Assembly: GCA_029532415.1 (NCBI GenBank)
Contig: JAQOTA010000054.1
Location: forward strand, 2,294,001 to 2,358,000
Direction of reading: 5' to 3'
Origin: Marasmius tenuissimus
Lineage: Eukaryota; Basidiomycota; Agaricomycetes; Agaricales; Marasmiaceae
Length of the DNA: 64,000 bases
A program made the translations under genes and the position numbers. Under the pieces are notes generated by a model that saw only the letters and a program-made list of their open reading frames with translations, searched no databases and was not told where the DNA came from. Shown here one piece after another: positions 22,060-38,002 of the stretch (positions are counted from its first letter, which is position 1; every line of letters starts with the position of its first letter).

Positions 22060-24213
22060 CTAGGCAGACTGAACATCATACTCACCTTCCAGAAGACGAT
22101 TTCTTTCGTCGTCCGTAATTTGTCTGGTAGCACGACGAGCGAGAAGCTTCTCCGTTCGGTACTTCTCGTATAGAACTTCCCGTGTGTGTGTCTTCAGCAT
22201 CTGGAGACGAAAGCAACCAAAGATTAGCCTCTGCAGATCCGAGGTTCTGAGAATTATTACCTTCAGATGGGTGGATAGTACAGCGGTCCGTAGAGCCGCG
22301 AAATCGCAATGATCGGGGTCAAGAACATCGATGGTTCCCCAACGATATTTCCTAATAAACACTCCTTTCATGTCCTGCGGTGGTCCGTTCAAATACGCAG
22401 GCGTGGCAGGAATCGTATCTGCGATAGATGCCGGCTTGCCCTCTTCGGATGGTTGTACAGGCGATGAAGACCCAGTCTCCAACGCCTGGCTGTCCGGTTC
22501 AATCAAGGGCTTCCTTTGTCTTCGTGCATCGGGAGCAATCAAAGCGAAAGGCATCACGGCCGCAAGATCCGGTCTTGAGACGATAAGCGCAGAGAAACGA
22601 ACATTGGCAACACTCTCCCGGTCATTTAGATCAGGAGACATGGGGCGTCTGTCGTCTTCGGCAGCTTGAGAAAGATCCCTACGAGAACGAGACCTCGACA
22701 AGGTACGGTGGCGAGAGGGGCGAAGCTTAATCACAGGTCGAGATTGTCTTTCTTCCTCTTCGTCGTCGTCCTCACTGCTGTGACCGGCTCCGCTCGCGCT
22801 GTCATCGGGAGAGACAGCGAAATGGGTTTTGGCGTTCCTGCCATTCTGCCCTCGAGTCTTAGAACGTTCTCTGTTCTTCTCCGCTGAGCCGAAGACACCA
22901 AAATCCAAGCCAGCCTCGGCCAAGGTCTTCCTCACAGCTTCCTTTACACCTACGAGCTTTTCGTCCGTCAGTGAGTCCGCCTTGGCCACAACAGGTAATA
23001 CGTTGCATCGCGTTGCTAGCCTGCGGATAACGCGTAATTCGGCTGGTGACATCGTGAGAGGGGGTTCTTCTTCTTCGGCTTCCTCGTCGTCAGAGTCGGA
23101 GGATGTATCGGGGATGAGGTCTGGTGGATTCTTTTGGGAGAGGGTGGTCTCAGAACGCGATTTCACAGGGAGTGAAGATCGAGCGCGTCGCTCGGCAGAG
23201 GTCATGATGGAGTTGGGCTCAATCATGTAGATACATCTGTCAAATAAAAGAATTGAGGGGTCAGCGAAAGAAGGCACGTAACAATATGCAATCCATCATG
23301 AAACAAACGGCAAACAATGATAGGGAGACTTACAAGTGAATGTGTTGGTCGCCCTTGCTCTTCCGAATGACCTTCGACTCCTGTAGAAAATGGTCAGATT
23401 CGGCAAAATGAACCAAATTGACAAACGCACTTCGCTCATCGTGTCGGCGTATTGCGCGTCAACATAACGCATTATGGTGCTGACTTGTCTCTCCAACCTC
23501 AGTTCTCTCCCTTCGGCATAATCCAGACCCGGCGTGTCCACGACAGATAACAACACGCGATCAAACCGAGACTCGCAAATTTCGATGCTTGCAGTCTGGA
23601 TAGACTGCGTCGTTTTGGGAGACCCGCGTAGGAACCTTTCGACCGCAACCTTCTGGTTGACAGTGGCGGACGGCGACAAGTCTGCCGTTTCCAGAATCAG
23701 GCGAAGAAGAGAAGTCTTCCCGGTACCCAGGCCACCAACAACCTAAAGGTAGTGAGGTTACACTCATTGAGTTTATCTGAGTATTGAGTGATATCCCCGA
23801 AAACTCACCATCACATTGAATGTCGGTGCTTGCCTTGTTCTTCGTTGACTGTATCTCGGTATTGGGGCTGGGGAATTCTTCCAATTGTCGAAAGCCGAAG
23901 GTGGATGCGACATGTACAGCGAAGAAATGGGGCCTCCTGCGATAGCTGAAGCAGAAGTGGAACCTGAAGAGGGCCGAAACGGTTTGTGGAACGGTATGGG
24001 ATGGTTGGGAGGCCCCTGCAAGGAGGTTTTAGTCGCACCTTCGACACGTCTGCCTTGCTGTTGATAATCTTGGTCGTTGTTGCCAATACTGGACACGTCT
24101 ACGAGACTTTCTGGCCATGGTATGCCTTGCTTGTGGACTTCTGGGAGGGAAGGGGAGGTTCTGACTTTTGGTTGCTGTGGGGGGTGTTTCGACTTGCGAC
24201 GTAAGGAGAACAT
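22060..24213 (-). CDS. septin-like GTPase
   Basis: P-loop GTPase of the septin superfamily. The start MFSLRRKSKHPPQQPKVRTS is basic; a low-complexity segment leads to the G domain: G1 VVGGLGTGKTSLLRLILET, G3 VVDTPGLDYAEGRELRLERQ, G4 CNVLPVVAKADSLTDEKL, and the septin-specific block YRWGTIDVLDPDHCDFAALR near the end, then THTREVLYEKYRTEKLLA. It differs from canonical cytoskeletal septins by long acidic or Ser-rich insertions (EEAEEEEPPLT before G4; SSEDDDEEEERQSRP after it) and by the lack of a long C-terminal coiled coil. It probably binds GTP; whether it joins septin filaments is unclear. Four or so introns, one just before G1. It is a paralogue of the G domain in the fusion gene at 34597-38002. 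Confidence 0.85.
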
Positions 24214-25361: not shown

Positions 25362-27521
25362 ATGCCTGCCATCATCGACAAAGTAGAGGACGGTCAGTTT
25401 GACGACCCGCCAGAGGACGTCGACCACCGTGGCGAGCACAACTATATCGATGTCTCTGGGCCTGAAGACTCCGAGGCAGAGTTATCCGACCATTTCGACG
25501 AGGAGGAAGAGTTTGACGATGAGGAGATTGACGACGCATACCAAGTTGAGGACGAGGACTGGGAAATAGCTGAACGAGGTGCGTCAACTAGCGAAGCGTA
25601 GTAATGAAAGACAAGCTGAGCTCCACTCAGACTTTACAAAGCAATACAACCGTCTCCGACAACACGTAGCTGTTCGTTCAGGAAATGCTGAAGGCTATGG
25701 TACCCAATCGTCGATCGACCGTTCGTCTCAAGTTGCCTCTTTACCCCCAGTCAATCATCCAGCAGCACGTCGCTCTCGGCAGAACGGTAGCACTGGTGCC
25801 CCAACCACAACAGCAACACCCAAGGACAAAACTTCCGACCAGTTAGCTGCGCTTGCCAAGTATTCGTCTCGGTTGGCAACGATCGACGATCCTTATACAA
25901 TGACCATGGGGGTCGGGGTGAACCGAAAGGGTCCCAGCTCGTACGCCAATCTCAAAGACAAATCCGATCGAGCAACGAATGAGCAAGTATTGGATCCCCG
26001 CACTCGATTGATCCTTTTCAAAATGATCGGGAGAGGCCTCATTCACGATGTGAACGGTTGCATAAGTACTGGGAAAGAGGTGCGCTCCATGCGTGTCTAC
26101 GTTGCCGTTCAATACTTAGGGTTCTGCTTACAGGCCAACGTCTATCATGCGCGTACCCCGGAAATGCGCCACCTGGCCGTGAAAATCTACAAGACTTCCA
26201 TTCTCGTGTTCAAAGACAGAGACAAGTATGTGACGGGTGAATACCGCTTCCGACGAGGCTACTCACGCAAGAATCCTCGGAAAATGGTTCGGCTATGGGC
26301 GGAAAAAGAGATGAGGAACCTGAAACGACTCATCACAGCGGGGATTCGTTGTCCGGAGCCAATCGAAGTCAGGGAGAATGTATTGGTGATGGGGTTTCTG
26401 GGAAACAAGGAAGGCTGGTGAGTTCCTAGCATGCATTTTGAGTGAGAGAAGGTCGAAACAATGAATCTCCTCGGCGTACAGGGCATCTCCACGCCTAAAA
26501 GATGCTGAAATTTCACCTGCCCAAGCTGGCGACCTGTACATTGAGCTCCTGTTCGCTGTACGACAGATGTATCACCAGTGTAAACTGGTTCACGCCGATC
26601 TATCGGAATACAACATCCTCTATCACGAAGACCACTTGTGGATCATCGATGTATCCCAGAGTGTAGAGCATGATCACCCTTCCGCTTTTGATTTCCTTAG
26701 GAACGATCTCAAAAACGTAGAGGACTTTTTTGGAAAGCTGGGGACATCGGCGCTACTGGGACTGAGGAGATCATTTGAATTCGTGACCGCTGAGAAGTTG
26801 GACGCGAAGGACGGGGAGGGGGATGACGAAACTATACTGAGAAGATGGCTTCGAGAGGAGGAGGGTCAAAGTATTACCCATGGACAATCGAACGGGGGCG
26901 AAGCTGACACAACGAACGGTAGGAATGCTGCTCACGAGGACGCGGTGTTTCTACAGTCATACATCCCCCGTACACTCAATGAAGTCTACGACCCGGAGCG
27001 CGACGTCGAGCTCCTCACGCGCGGAGAGGGAAAGAAGCTGATCTATGCTGACACCATTGGACTGGTCAATCATCAAGAGCAGGTCAAGTCGAGCCGTGGA
27101 GTACGGTTTGACGAAACGGCGAACGATGGAAAGTCTCCCGTCGAAGATGACTCAAAAGCCCCTATGAGCGCGAAGCATCTCGAAAGTCCAAATGGAGCGT
27201 CGAAAAGTGACGATGAAGAAGATGTATATGATTCCGAGGGAGATGAAGTTTCCGAATCAGGAGAAGACGATCCCGAGTCAACGCAAACGATGGATGGCGA
27301 AGTATCCCGAGAAAAGAAACCGCGTGGACATCGACATGAAGATCGAGAAGCGAAAAAAGTTGGTGGCGTCGTTTGTGGTTGCTTTCGTTATTGACTCCGA
27401 CTCATTTCTCCCTTCTCTGTAGGAAAGAAAAAAGGCCGTCAAAGCAGAGGCGAAAGAGAAACGTAAAAATAAGATGCCGAAAGCGGAGAAAAAAAGGCTC
27501 ATGAAGAAGACTCGAGGGTGA
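25362..27521 (+). CDS. RIO1: RIO1 atypical serine kinase/ATPase
   Basis: Cytoplasmic late factor in 40S ribosomal subunit maturation that binds pre-40S particles and uses ATP. It starts [19 protein letters not shown] with an acidic N-terminus. The RIO domain shows the nucleotide loop [16 protein letters not shown], the catalytic Lys in [40 protein letters not shown], the hinge [13 protein letters not shown], the catalytic loop [14 protein letters not shown] (Asp and Asn), and the metal-binding Asp in [16 protein letters not shown] long acidic C-terminal tail ([20 protein letters not shown]) ends in a Lys-rich stretch ([20 protein letters not shown]), as in other RIO1 proteins. Introns fall inside the nucleotide loop (near 26080) and in the C-terminal tail (about 27360-27421). 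Confidence 0.94.
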
Positions 27522-27686
27522 AACCCTTGGGATCCACACTTTACTTCACTCAACAATATCTGGATGCCGGAAATGAGCAAAGAGCGAACGGTTAAATTCG
27601 TAGCGGGTGTCTAAATGTACAGTACTAAGCAATGGACGATCTATCGTAGTTTACTTTTCCAGGACTTTGGTGAAAATGACTTCCTT

Positions 27687-30600
27687 TTAGGCATCGGTAA
27701 TACATCCCCTGCTCGCGTCCTCCACATTCTTCACATACTTGAAGAGTGTACCATGCGAGACCTTGAGTGGCGGTGGTGTCCATCCCTCCCTTCTCTTGTT
27801 TATTTCCGCCTCAGGGACATGAAGTTCGATGATGTTCTTGACGGCATCGACGGAGATAACATCTCCATCTTTCACGAACGCGATGGGACCACCAACCTGC
27901 GCCTCTGGGACGACGTGGCCAATGCAGAAACCATGGGAGCTGTAATTAGGCAGGGGCGCAAAAAAAAAACGCGTGGACGTGGGTGGACAAGTAGGAGGTC
28001 GAGAGACGGTAGGAATGGAAGCGAGACAGCGGAAAGCCACAAGCCACAACATGGCGATGAAGTCCAAGCGGCCCAAGCAACGGGGGAGGGGTAAATGAAG
28101 GCAAAAAAATGAGGTGCCGGTTTTGACAGGTCACAGCACAATGTTTCGGTGTTAGTTGCAGGGTTTCGTTTCGAGAGGGGTGGAGTTTGCGAGAATTTAG
28201 GGTGCACGATACGAATTTCGGATATGGAAAGCAGATAAACAAGATGCGGTCAGTACAGCTTCTTCCGAATTCAGGGTAAGAAGAAAGGTGAACGAACGGC
28301 ATGACTACTCTACACAGACAAAGGAACGCCATTCCCAGAAACGCGAACGGAGTTCACACCTCATCCGATACGCCCGAAGGTTGATTGCCCTCAGGGCCCG
28401 AATTTGGAGTGACCTAACAACAGGGACTCCAAGCGGGAATGGAAATGTGGGAAAGGCAACACTTGTCAAGGAGTTGTTTGACCCCGTCAAACGGATCGCA
28501 TGCAACAATTGTTGGCGGGGAACTCCAACAGATGCTGGAGTCGAGGCGGAGGCAGGGACAAGGAGAACAGCGGGAGAAGGTAGAAAAGGGACTGCGATGT
28601 AGGCGGAGACACTGAAAAGAGTAACTCACCCTCCACTAAACCTGCCATCAGTTAGACAGGCCACATCTAGACCTAGGCCAGCACCCATGATCAAACTAGT
28701 GGGTTTGAGCATTTCGGGCATACCTAAAAACAGGTAAATGGGTCAGTGAGAGGGTTCCAGAGTCCACGAGGAACGATAAGGAAACGGAAAATGGTTGATC
28801 ATAGTGAAAGATGTACGAAAGAGTCCGAGAATATGGAACAAGGAATGGCGCAAAAGAACATGAAGGCATATGGATTAAATGAGCCGTAAGATTGATGCAA
28901 ACACACTTCCTCCCCCGGGATACTGGTACGAAGAGACCAATGCCAACGCAGGGAGCTATCAGGAATATGTTCGGAACATGAAGAAGACCCAGATCCGTAA
29001 AGGTACTCGTCGACAACGCGCCAGGGCGTACAAAACAGTGCGAGTGGATCGTGGTCGACCAAACGTCAAAAGAGGATGGCCAGGATGGACGGTGGCACCA
29101 CCGAGACCAGGTCGATGGTTATGACACCACGATCCTTTCCTCGTTCGGAACGGGTATTAAACAAAGAAGAGACGAAAGGAAAAGGACGGACGTTTGGACA
29201 ACCCCCAACAGAGCAATTGAATGCCAACAACATAGCAAAAAGCTCCGTGGCTCTGGGTTACAGTCCGAACATCACCGTCGTCGCCAGGGGTATGGCAACG
29301 CGATCGCAATTAATACGTAAGCATATGGAGTGGCGTGAACTCTCATAATGAACGCAGGGCGGGGAAAAGATTCAACATCAACTAACCCCGCATGCTAAGT
29401 GAGATGGCTCGCCCACATTCAAAGAAATACCGAGCAAACTGCTATGAGAGAATGGACTGAAAATGAGCGACTCACCAGGTCCACCCTTCGGTCCAAGATA
29501 CCTCAAAATGACAACAGTTTTTTCACCCTTCTTGATGCTCCCGCTCTCTACAGCCTTGACAAACTCTTCTTCATTGTCAAACACCCTGGCCTTTCCTGTG
29601 AATCCTAAACCTTCTTTCCCAGTGATCTTAGCAACAGCTCCACCAGGCGCGAGGTTGCCTTTGAGGATCCTGTAACATACACATCAGGGTATGAGGGCTA
29701 GATCTAAGAAACAATGTATTTGCGGCGGAAACGACAAACCGGATATGACCAGTCTCTTTGATGGGTTGGTCCAGCGGTCTAATGACGTCCTGTTTGTCGA
29801 AATCCAATTCGCCGTACTTGTGTACCCAGCGATCTAGGTTCTCGCCTAATGTGCGGCCTGTGACAGTGAGAGTATCACCTTTTATGAGATTATTCTTGAG
29901 GAGGAAGTGGAGAATCTCTGTACAACGAAAAATAGAAAATAAATCGAATTAGAGAAAGGATTATTACAGACTGCGAAGAACGCAACGTACTTGGAATACC
30001 ACCGATCCTATAGACGTCTTCCATAACATACTTCCCGCTCGGTTTTATGTCTGCTATGAACGGCGTCCTGTCGCTGACGTTCTGGAAATCATCGATGCTA
30101 AGATCGATTCCCACAGAGTGAGCGATGGCGATGAGATGGAGAACGGCGTTGGTCGATCCTCCAAGGATCATCGTGAGTACCTACGTCCATTAGTTAGGTT
30201 ACATGGACCACGCGAAGCGGACGTACCATGGCGTTCTCAAACGCGTCTCTGGTCATTATATCCCTCGGCAGTAAGTTCATCTCCAACAGGGTCCGCATCG
30301 CAGGCCCTATATCTCTGCACTCTTGAATCTTCTCGGGCGTCTCGGCAGGGAAAGAGGAAGATCCAGGAAGGGTCATACCCAACACTTCGGCGTTCGATGC
30401 CATGGTGTTCGCAGTATACATCTAAACCATCCGTCAAGGTCGAGGAAGACAGAGGTTAACAGTTCGCGGGACGCACCCCACCACAAGCTCCAGGCCCTGG
30501 GCAAGCATATCTGACAGTCTCGTACCTCTCCTTCTCCGCCGCCTCGGTTTGCCCGTCCTGAAGGTACTTGCCATAGCTCTGGAACGCGCTCACGATATCG

Positions 30601-34596: not shown

Positions 34597-37500
34597 ATGA
34601 ACGACCTCAACGACCCTGTCTCACCGTCGGCGCTGCCTCCAAGAGCTTCTCCTCGGCTAACGAGATCAAGAGCAGACTCATCAGCCAGAGAGGAGGCCAG
34701 AGGCGACCCCAGAGAGCACTCTCATGACCTCAACGACTTGAACGAATTTTGTTTGCTGGTTGCTGGTGACCATGGAGGTGCGTATCTTTGCTCATTGCAA
34801 GCGATAGCCGTCGACATTGACACTTATGCTATATGCTGTGCCACAGGCAAATCGTCTTTCCTTCGCCTGCTCCTCGAGACCACGCCCTTGTGCGGCGCTG
34901 AACACTCCGGCGGACAGAAACAGAAAGCCGCGTTGACCAAATTCATTCAGGACTGCTCGGACCGCACGACGTGCATACGATCCACGACCGTCAATGTCCT
35001 CGTTCCCCAAGGTGCAACTCCCAAAACGAGTCCAAAGTCGAGCCCAAAATCAGATGTGCTCCCGCTAGATGCAAATTCGAGTCTAGATACCCAAGCTCAG
35101 GTGCAGCTCGCCCTCACTTTGGTGGATACTCCGTCCATTGTACCTGCACCGTCACCTGCCGTCACAGAGGATGTGCTTCGCTTCGTAGAATCAAGGTTAG
35201 CGGAAGCGGTCGATACGTCTTCTCGCGCCGGCCTTATGCACCTTTGCATCTACTTCCTCGATCTTTCACCATCTTACCCTCTTCCAAGACACCATATCGA
35301 CACGATCTGCCGGCTGTCAGCACGCGTTAATGTCCTTCCAGTTATAGCTAAGGCAGATACCTTGTCGAACCAGCAACTGCGTGCCATGAAAGACGTGGTG
35401 AGGAGGGACTTGGCGGACGCAGGCATCGGCTTTGGGATATTCGATCAGGAAGTTGTCAGCAAACCCCCGGACTTGGGTGACCAGCCAAATGGCAAGCACA
35501 TCGCCGAGGAGACGTTCAAGATACCTGGTCTACCATATGCGCTCATCTCTCCGGATTCGTATGATGTCTCGCTTTCTCGTTCGTCGTCTGCATCACCTCC
35601 GCCTCCGATCCCGTCTCCACCTCCCATTAAACGCTCTCCGGGTAACGCAAGCTCCCTTCCTCTCTACACGCGGTCCTTCCGGTGGGGCTCAATCGACATT
35701 CTTGACCCGAAGCACAGTGACTTTGTCTCGCTCAAACATGGTAAGCCCTCCCACGCTTCAGGCGTCAACTCTGAATAGACGGCGTTTCGTTGGCCCTACC
35801 TACTTGGTTACTGATCTTCCTCATTCCTAGCTGTCTTTCATCATATCAAAACACTACGGAACTACACCCAACAGTACCTCTTCGAGAGATTCAAGGCGGA
35901 CTTCATAGCTTATCGGTACCCATCCTATGCACAGCCTCAAGGTCGGGAACAACCCCCACCGCATTCACATCACTCACGAGAACACCGTCCACACAATTCG
36001 CCTCCCTACACTTACCCTTCTCAGCATTCCGGTTACCCGCCTCCCCCTCCGTCACAGCAGCATCATCATTCGCACTCCCACTCACACTCAAGCAGTGGAA
36101 GTTCTAGGCCTGTGTTGGCGATTGACACGGGTAGTAGCAGTGCTTCTACTCCCAGACATGGTCCTGACCTTACGGTCTCTGCGTCAACTTCTTCCCGTGG
36201 CGCGTCCTCGCGCGGTGGGCAGCACATCCCGCCTGTCTCTGATGCCGCTTCGTCTGGTCGTGCGTCCACTAAAAAGGAAACACCCGACGGGCCCGGGGAG
36301 AAGGAGAAGAGCAGGCCCAAAAAGATCACCGTCGCGTGCAACTTTTGTCGGTCACGAAAGCTGAAATGTGATGGTGTTAGGCCGGCATGTGTACAGTGTC
36401 TGAAAAGGAGCAACCCATGCGACTACCAAACACAGGGGAGGAGAAGAGGCGCGAAAGGGAAGAGAGATAAAGGTGGCGCCGCGGGTGAGAAGGACAAGGA
36501 TTTCAATAAGGAGAAGGCCGGGAAGGATGGCAAGTCGACTAATGGTAATGGATCGGCGGCTGGCTCTGCCCGAGATTCTCGAAGGAGTAAAGCCAGTGGG
36601 AGTCGCGAAGACAGTGAAGATTTTGAAGGCGACGGCGACGAAGGTAGTGGTACCGGGAGCCAAGACGCGGAAGCGGAGGATGATGAGGACGAGGATATTG
36701 ATATGAATGAGCTGCGGCCAAGTTCAAGGTCGTCGGTGATTGGGAGAAGTCGGCACGGGTCCGTCAATGAGTACCCGCCGGCACACTTGTCTCATCCTCC
36801 CTCATCGTATAGGCCCCCTTCCTCTGCCTACGCTCAGGCGCATACGACTCTCCCGTCGATCTCGGCAGATTTTCCTCCCCCACCCACACACGGTAGAAGT
36901 AGGGGTGCAAGCATATCTAGTCTCACTGGACCTTTAGATCGGGAACGAGATCCGAGAGACAGAGGAGGATACGAGCTACCGCACATCGCCACCTTGAGTT
37001 TGCCGGATCCGACTGCAAGGCATCACCAGTCGTCCAGACGCTCTCCCCAACGAGTTCCCCATGGTCCGCCGCCTGGACATCACTCTAGGTCTTCCTCGTC
37101 TCATCACTTGCCGCCTCCTGGAGGTCATCTTCCGCCGCCCCACCCTCAACTTACACGCTCACCCCCACACCATCTGCCACCGCCTCCTCACTTGCCTTCA
37201 CCTCACCACCATTTGTCTGCGTCAAGTGGGCCTCCGTCTCACGTCTCACCCCATCCTTCAAGCTCGTCGGGAAGTGCGAGTGCTCATCTCTCGCCTCACC
37301 ATCATCACAGATTACCTTCGCCTCATATCCCGCCTCAACAGCAACAGGCGACGTCTAGGAAACGCGCGGCTACAGCGCCCTCAAAGAGTGGTGGCCCTGT
37401 AGGGGCTGCAGGGTACCATCCAAACGTCCCAGGACCTCCAAGGGCAAGCGAGGTGTCTAGGGGCAGAAGTTCAACTACCAGTGCGGGTAACCCTCTCCCC

Positions 37501-38002
37501 GAAGCAGGAGGTGGGCCACCAGTCGAATCATTGGGTGTAGGCGGCTCAGCTGTCAACGTGGGAACCATCGGGAGTGTTACAGCCGGTATGATACGAGCGA
37601 CAGGGAGGTTACCCAGTACGAGCGGACCCAAAATTGTGGCGTGTAACTTCTGTAGAGGTGAGTTTTGGATTCGGACTCTTTCAGAAACTCCAAGAGCTGA
37701 TTTTTGGTCTACTTGCAGCTCGGAAGACAAAATGCGACGGAGCACATCCTAGCTGCGGATCTTGTGCGAGGAGGAGTTTGCCTTGCAATTATGTACATGA
37801 GAGGGGTGGGAGACGGGGTGGTGCGGCTGCGGCTGCGGGTAGTGCTGGTCCTGGTTCCTCTGCTCAGGCCAGCACGGGGGCAGTCACGGGAAGCGATAGG
37901 AAGCCGCCGAGTTCATCTGGGAGAGGTAGCAAAAGGTTGTCGGATCACGAATTGGAGGATCCAGGGGCCGGTGGGAGAAAGAGGATGAGAGTGAGTGAGT
38001 AA
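34597..38002 (+). CDS. septin-like GTPase domain fused to two Zn2Cys6 DNA-binding clusters
   Basis: Four exons (34597-34777, 34847-35740, 35831-37657, 37719-38002) give an exact 1062-codon frame, with all three introns in phase 1 and consensus ends. Residues about 45-390 form a septin-like P-loop domain: G1 AGDHGGKSSFLRLLLET (first Gly replaced by Ala, still a valid Walker A), G3 LVDTPSIVPAPSP (Ser for Gly), VNVLPVIAKADTLSNQQLRA (G4), and the septin block FRWGSIDILDPKHSDFVSLK. A His/Pro/Ser-rich linker follows. The first zinc cluster is CNFCRSRKLKCDGVRPAC plus CLKRSNPC (residues about 528-555); then come an acidic stretch and a long Ser/Pro/His-rich middle; the second cluster starts CNFCRARKTKCDGAHPSC (about 963-990). 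Both clusters have all six cysteines, and the second is split by an intron. Likely a nuclear DNA-binding protein with a nucleotide-binding module. Alternative: two adjacent genes, but no stop or in-frame ATG separates them in the linker. Confidence 0.75.

Follow-up and report, generated by a model that had tools for sequence, protein, structure and literature searches.

Within a 64,000-nucleotide stretch of contig JAQOTA010000054.1 of Marasmius tenuissimus, which will be referred to as the window, the gene PM082_017379 encodes a protein in which a septin-type domain is fused to two Zn2Cys6 zinc clusters. Septins are cytoskeletal GTPases, and fungal regulators bind DNA through Zn2Cys6 clusters; with both in one conserved chain, the morphogenesis machinery would have a direct physical link to DNA. 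Judged from its sequence and those of its homologues, the fusion is a conserved gene of the Agaricomycetes composed of an AspE-related septin domain, a long disordered linker and two Gal4-type zinc clusters.

The spliced gene model starts with an ATG at position 34597, ends with a TAA stop codon at 38000-38002 and comprises 1062 codons including the stop. It is interrupted by three introns of 69, 90 and 61 bases, all bordered by GT-AG, and cumulative coding lengths of 181, 1075 and 2902 place 3/3 introns in phase 1. The deduced product shows 100% identity over 1061 amino acids to M. tenuissimus PM082_017379, so both the gene model and the annotated protein confirm the single frame of the original prediction. 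ATG codons of this frame are located at 1, 191, 241, 650, 945 and 1057. As claimed earlier, the spliced frame contains neither an ATG nor a stop between the end of the septin domain (around residue 388) and cluster 1 (residue 528); the next ATG codon after 241 is codon 650. Pfam analysis detected both parts in the one protein, Septin (PF00735) with 86.1 bits (cut-off 26.2) and Zn_clus (PF00172) with 63 bits (cut-off 21) in two stretches, as originally described; no further domain was listed at E < 0.01, and hence neither Fungal_trans nor an activation-type domain. The spacing read from the sequence is C-x2-C-x6-C-x6-C-x2-C-x6-C in both clusters, corresponding to the canonical C-x2-C-x6-C-x5-12-C-x2-C-x6-8-C. 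Structure prediction by AlphaFold2, suggested earlier as a check, yielded a folded septin domain with the fold of a septin G domain, two folded zinc clusters and a disordered long linker. In this model, a helix extends over residues 353-387 and is followed by disorder. Group 5 septins have been described as devoid of the C-terminal coiled coil (PMC6323724). The coordinates of all features are summarized in Table 1.

Table 1. Features of the septin-zinc cluster fusion gene and its neighbours, in positions of the window.
Feature	Position	Strand	Basis
Complete coding region of fusion gene PM082_017379, four exons, 1061 aa (amino acids)	34597..38002	+	spliced model, identical annotated protein
Exon 1 of fusion gene	34597..34777	+	gene model
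Exon 2, bulk of septin G domain	34847..35740	+	gene model
Exon 3, from the end of the septin domain across the linker, cluster 1 and the inter-cluster linker into cluster 2	35831..37657	+	gene model
Exon 4, remainder of zinc cluster 2, basic C-terminus	37719..38002	+	gene model
Septin-type G domain, residues ~45-388, split by introns 1 and 2	34729..35919	+	
Region preceding the changed G3 box, position approximate only	35056..35067	+	gene model, alignment columns
Changed G3 box DTPS, residues 154-157, DxxG glycine replaced	35125..35136	+	family alignment
Disordered His/Pro/Ser linker, residues 389-522, RPxLxIDT motif at 451-458	35920..36321	+	gene model, AlphaFold2, motif columns at least 90%
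Zinc cluster 1, cysteines 528-555	36337..36420	+	Pfam, alignment, AlphaFold2
Second zinc cluster (cysteines 963-990), interrupted by intron 3 at 37658-37718	37642..37786	+	gene model, Pfam, alignment, AlphaFold2
AspE-type (group 5) septin gene PM082_017375, without zinc clusters, divergent partner	22060..24213	-	gene model, Pfam, homologue rows
RIO1-domain kinase gene, located between fusion and partner gene	25570-28500	+	

The presence of the septin domain and both zinc clusters in one protein can be regarded as almost certain from the sequence comparisons. Protein searches yielded 186 matches for the fusion, 379 for the AspE-type partner and 157 for the C-terminal half, with the best 120 rows listed in each case; fusion-family counts given out of 120 refer to alignment rows of the best 120 of the 186 homologues. 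PF00735 and PF00172 were found together in all 120 of these, which answers the question of conservation raised by the original prediction and excludes, for the listed homologues, that the two parts are always separate genes. The nine names whose order was looked up, M. tenuissimus (Agaricales) among them, belong to Agaricales, Russulales, Boletales, Polyporales, Atheliales and Corticiales, which are orders of Agaricomycetes, and early-branching Agaricomycetes as well as other classes may be hidden beyond the best 120 rows. The septin tryptophan W340 aligns ahead of cluster 1 in 120/120 rows, four cysteines of cluster 1 are likewise present in 120/120, and the remaining cysteines of both clusters in 117-120. 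Motif parsing was based on 107 rows, as 13 rows failed the pattern and were left out; it retrieved the linker motif in 100, an LPxI-type motif between the clusters in 89 and the basic C-terminal motif in 104 rows. Counting clusters by pattern resulted in two clusters in 110 rows, one in 7 and three in 3.

A gene-model artefact merging two separate genes would be the obvious alternative and appears highly improbable. It gains some credit from the linker itself, as dinucleotide shuffles of the 400-base linker alone were open in 48 out of 1000 cases, so that an open linker is on its own weak evidence of a fusion; the shuffles of the whole of exon 3 were open in the given frame in 0/1000 cases. 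It could further appeal to five short annotated proteins carrying zinc clusters only (two from Termitomyces and one each from Tricholoma furcatifolium, Grifola frondosa and Suillus lakei). These came from the search with the C-terminal half, which was restricted to shorter proteins; 112 of its 120 listed matches are metagenome pieces, and of the remaining eight named rows three contain both domains. However, three of the short models begin with MPQNKRRG directly behind cluster 1 and one begins within the septin C-terminus, and these four thus look as truncated versions of the fused frame starting at internal methionines would, the start of the Suillus lakei model being located slightly ahead of cluster 1. 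Moreover, intron 2 interrupts the septin domain, whose final ~30 residues consequently share an exon with cluster 1, and gene structures of Pleurotus ostreatus, to which we return below, were corrected with RNA-seq reads (PMC7295025). Since all listed homologues conserve the fusion and intron 2 is located inside the septin domain, we consider the fusion to be real; the two-gene artefact was rejected on the basis of the both-domain homologues, the alignment, the exon structure and the truncated look of the short models.

Using the Coprinopsis cinerea fusion protein as query against the genome, only nine matches were obtained, corresponding to the fusion gene, its AspE-type neighbour and three places with zinc clusters; a second fusion gene was not detected at the sensitivity of this query. 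The fusion members of Marasmius are unusually diverged, with 61-65% identity within the genus and 30-40% to all other listed rows. Their inter-cluster linker comprises 407 residues compared to a median of 164, and an insert carried by most other members has been lost.

The nucleotide site of the septin domain is only partly conserved. Walker A and AKAD, both named in the original prediction, are indeed present, the former as the G1 P-loop AGDHGGKS and the latter as the G4 box. Across the family, the P-loop pattern [AG]x4GK[ST] was found in 106/120 rows, the G4 aspartate in 120/120, and an aligned switch I threonine in 119/120, whereas the G4 lysine seen here occurs in 15/120 rows and arginine in 100/120. 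Arginine is also frequent in the partner family (ARAD in 61/120). The DTPS sequence, which had been counted among the septin motifs, turned out to be a changed G3 box that deviates from DxxG. At this position the family shows DTPS in 111 rows, DTPA in 5, DTPT and DSPS in 1 each and a gap in 2; the glycine is consequently absent in 118/118 readable rows, whereas it is retained in all of the best 120 AspE-type partner rows (DTPG 111, DSPG 9). In P-loop GTPases, the GTP-dependent switch is impaired when the DxxG glycine is missing, while binding may remain. As far as can be judged from the alignment, the G3 change weakens the case for a GTP-hydrolysing septin but not the one for septin descent.

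The closest kin of the septin half is apparently encoded nearby. The start codons of the AspE-type septin gene (24213, minus strand) and of the fusion gene (34597, plus strand) are 10.4 kb apart, and the two genes are divergently transcribed. Our partner model of 626 amino acids differs from the annotated protein of 620 amino acids only at the extreme C-terminus. The partner family (best 120 of 379 rows) includes C. cinerea CC1G_04978, which has been named Cc.AspE and whose gene has a developmentally regulated, 3'-biased antisense transcript present before stipe elongation (PMC4624876). AspE-type septins share the element WG..DVLDP.H.DF with the fusion, but differ from it in the kept G3 glycine and in that no PF00172 was found in the 120 listed partner rows. 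A midpoint-rooted tree was calculated from 21 fusion septin domains, 19 partners and five other septins of the genome, the AspE class being represented by the AspE-type partners alone. The fusion domains formed one clade (100/99), and fusions and partners together were separated from the five other septins (100/100). The core septins (Cdc3, Cdc10, Cdc11 and Cdc12 classes), which are without zinc clusters, are thus found on a separate branch, and AspE septins, the class of Cc.AspE and Aspergillus nidulans AspE, are the closest septins in the tree as well as the gene neighbour. By this placement the septin half groups with AspE (group 5), with a caveat for long branches.

The neighbourhood appears to be widespread. 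For 57 of 118 contig-bearing fusion rows the contig is of exactly the same size as that of one of 119 partner rows, compared to a chance expectation of ~2 such row pairs when a genome of 40 Mb is assumed; 14 of the 57 shared contigs are below 300 kb, the smallest being 5.2 and 16.5 kb. Among 58 named species with contig data in both lists, counted by eye, 56 match, the exceptions being Mycena citricolor and Lentinula raphanica, and Boletales, Russulales and Polyporales are represented among the matched pairs. In 11 species with comparable locus tags, the gap between fusion and partner is 1 in six and 2, 3, 3, 4 and 12 in the others; a gap of 1 is seen in Asterophora parasitica. These findings indicate that the fusion gene is usually located beside an AspE-type gene across mushroom-forming fungi.

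With respect to the zinc clusters, Hap1/Cyp1 and Gal4 rank first among the solved zinc-cluster proteins matching cluster 1, and Cep3, Rsc3 and Rsc30 are also found. The fusion resembles Gal4/Hap1-type factors in the six-cysteine cluster, which can be aligned to Hap1/Cyp1 and Gal4, but differs from them by its two C-terminal clusters, its septin domain and the absence of Fungal_trans from the Pfam listing. Clusters 1 and 2 of the same protein are on average 63% identical (113 rows). The score of cluster 1 against cluster 2 is 129, compared to 92 for the best of six scored genome clusters, and this fits an internal duplication of the zinc cluster. The search for a donor covered 18 further loci with zinc clusters in the genome, drawn from 37 matches plus one from another query, and scored six intron-free clusters, none of which was identified as the donor. 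Since the position and phase of intron 3 inside cluster 2 are those found in 3/18 of these loci (L032, L035 and L037), the comparison suggests that cluster 2 originates from an ordinary zinc-cluster exon and that cluster 1 is its intron-free copy.

The explanation we favour, and to which we attribute about an even chance of being right as a whole, is that the fusion is a protein that binds DNA through two clusters in cis and is oligomerised or tethered by its septin domain, perhaps together with AspE. Both zinc clusters would bind DNA jointly from one chain. The septin domain would represent a nucleotide-bound or nucleotide-indifferent module rather than a GTP-hydrolysis switch and would oligomerise or tether the protein, most likely via a septin interface shared with the AspE-type neighbour, resulting in a DNA-binding protein the location or valency of which is set by septin assemblies. 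Tentatively, and with a somewhat low probability, fusion and AspE might even be a dedicated pair in Agaricomycetes, in which the septin domain lacking the G3 glycine either draws the DNA-binding chain with its two clusters into septin assemblies or takes AspE to the nucleus, and thereby reports the cortical septin state to gene expression in multicellular growth. Several points weigh against the explanation of a septin-tethered DNA-binding protein. DNA binding, nuclear location and AspE contact are predicted properties proposed from the sequence, and interface residues of septins are described as poorly conserved in group 5 (PMC6323724), which weakens the interface argument. In the tree, the partner group is weakly supported (52/54) under the midpoint root, and the tree program issued a long-branch warning for core septins and fusions. 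For the Marasmius fusion domain, a core septin gives a slightly better score (75.1 bits) than the neighbouring AspE-type septin (65.9 bits); the C. cinerea domain shows the expected order (155 bits versus AspE-type, 70.9 versus core septin), and the long Marasmius branch (1.55) may be the reason for the score order there. The neighbourhood in other species, finally, was deduced from equal contig sizes and locus tags and not from their DNA.

Three other functional explanations were weighed. A structural role appears unlikely; here the protein would not act as a transcription factor, and its zinc clusters would fix a septin-type module to chromatin or centromeres or bind a target other than promoter DNA. 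The matches of cluster 1 to the kinetochore protein Cep3 and to the chromatin remodelling subunits Rsc3 and Rsc30 would be in accordance with such a role, as would the lack of an activation-type domain in the Pfam listing, but the promoter-binding proteins Hap1/Cyp1 and Gal4 match better, and long acidic, low-complexity stretches would suit activation regions. Distinctly unlikely is a GTP-switched transcription factor, in which the septin domain toggles DNA binding or assembly by binding or hydrolysing GTP. Although the P-loop, the G4 aspartate, the switch I threonine and the predicted septin fold argue for it, a hydrolysis switch is disfavoured because the G3 glycine is replaced family-wide while the partner family keeps it, and 14/120 rows are without the P-loop pattern, some perhaps due to truncated gene models. 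The initial proposal of GTP-controlled DNA binding is consequently not supported in the form of a GTP cycle, the predominant arginine in G4 (lysine in this protein) being a further point against it, but its second option, control by oligomerisation at a septin-type interface, may still apply. A cleaved precursor or a membrane- or cortex-tethered factor, retained at the cortex by its septin half while the half with the zinc clusters is set free or moves into the nucleus, is improbable; it would make use of the long disordered linker and the conserved basic C-terminal motif and is in line with the cortical AspE of A. nidulans (PMC3963935), but a cortical location of the fusion protein is proposed by analogy to AspE, and neither a protease site nor a membrane segment has been noted, no search having been aimed at them.

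The architecture itself is not new. In the literature found it is already in print once, for PoZCP55 of P. ostreatus, reported to combine septin domains (PF00735) with a pair of zinc clusters at the C-terminus and to form a separate clade among 66 zinc-cluster proteins (PMC7295025). PoZCP55 is likened to the fusion by this description only, and the family has a listed member in P. pulmonarius (P0032). The available text of that report devotes one sentence of domain annotation to it, with no function, AspE link or G3 analysis (PMC7295025). The earlier statement that no characterised protein combines the two domains therefore holds in so far as no functional study of a septin-zinc cluster fusion was found in the open-licence literature, but not for the architecture, which is contained in that sentence, both domains also being present in public annotation. 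New here are the grouping of the septin half with AspE, the divergent AspE-type neighbour 10 kb away and the family-wide loss of the G3 glycine. Since the fusion adjoins AspE in C. cinerea and Schizophyllum commune (listed rows), the question of how fungi couple the shape of hyphae or fruiting bodies to gene expression can be addressed in genetic models through a named gene pair.

In the window, at least a RIO1-domain kinase gene separates the two septin genes. This gene may have been inserted in the Marasmius line, as the locus tags of both septin genes are consecutive in several other species. Finally, the two Cdc11-like septins of the genome (L012 and L013) carry arginine in place of the P-loop lysine (ASGSGRTT and ASGTGRTT), and the P-loop of yeast Cdc11 reads SGRST in the alignment.
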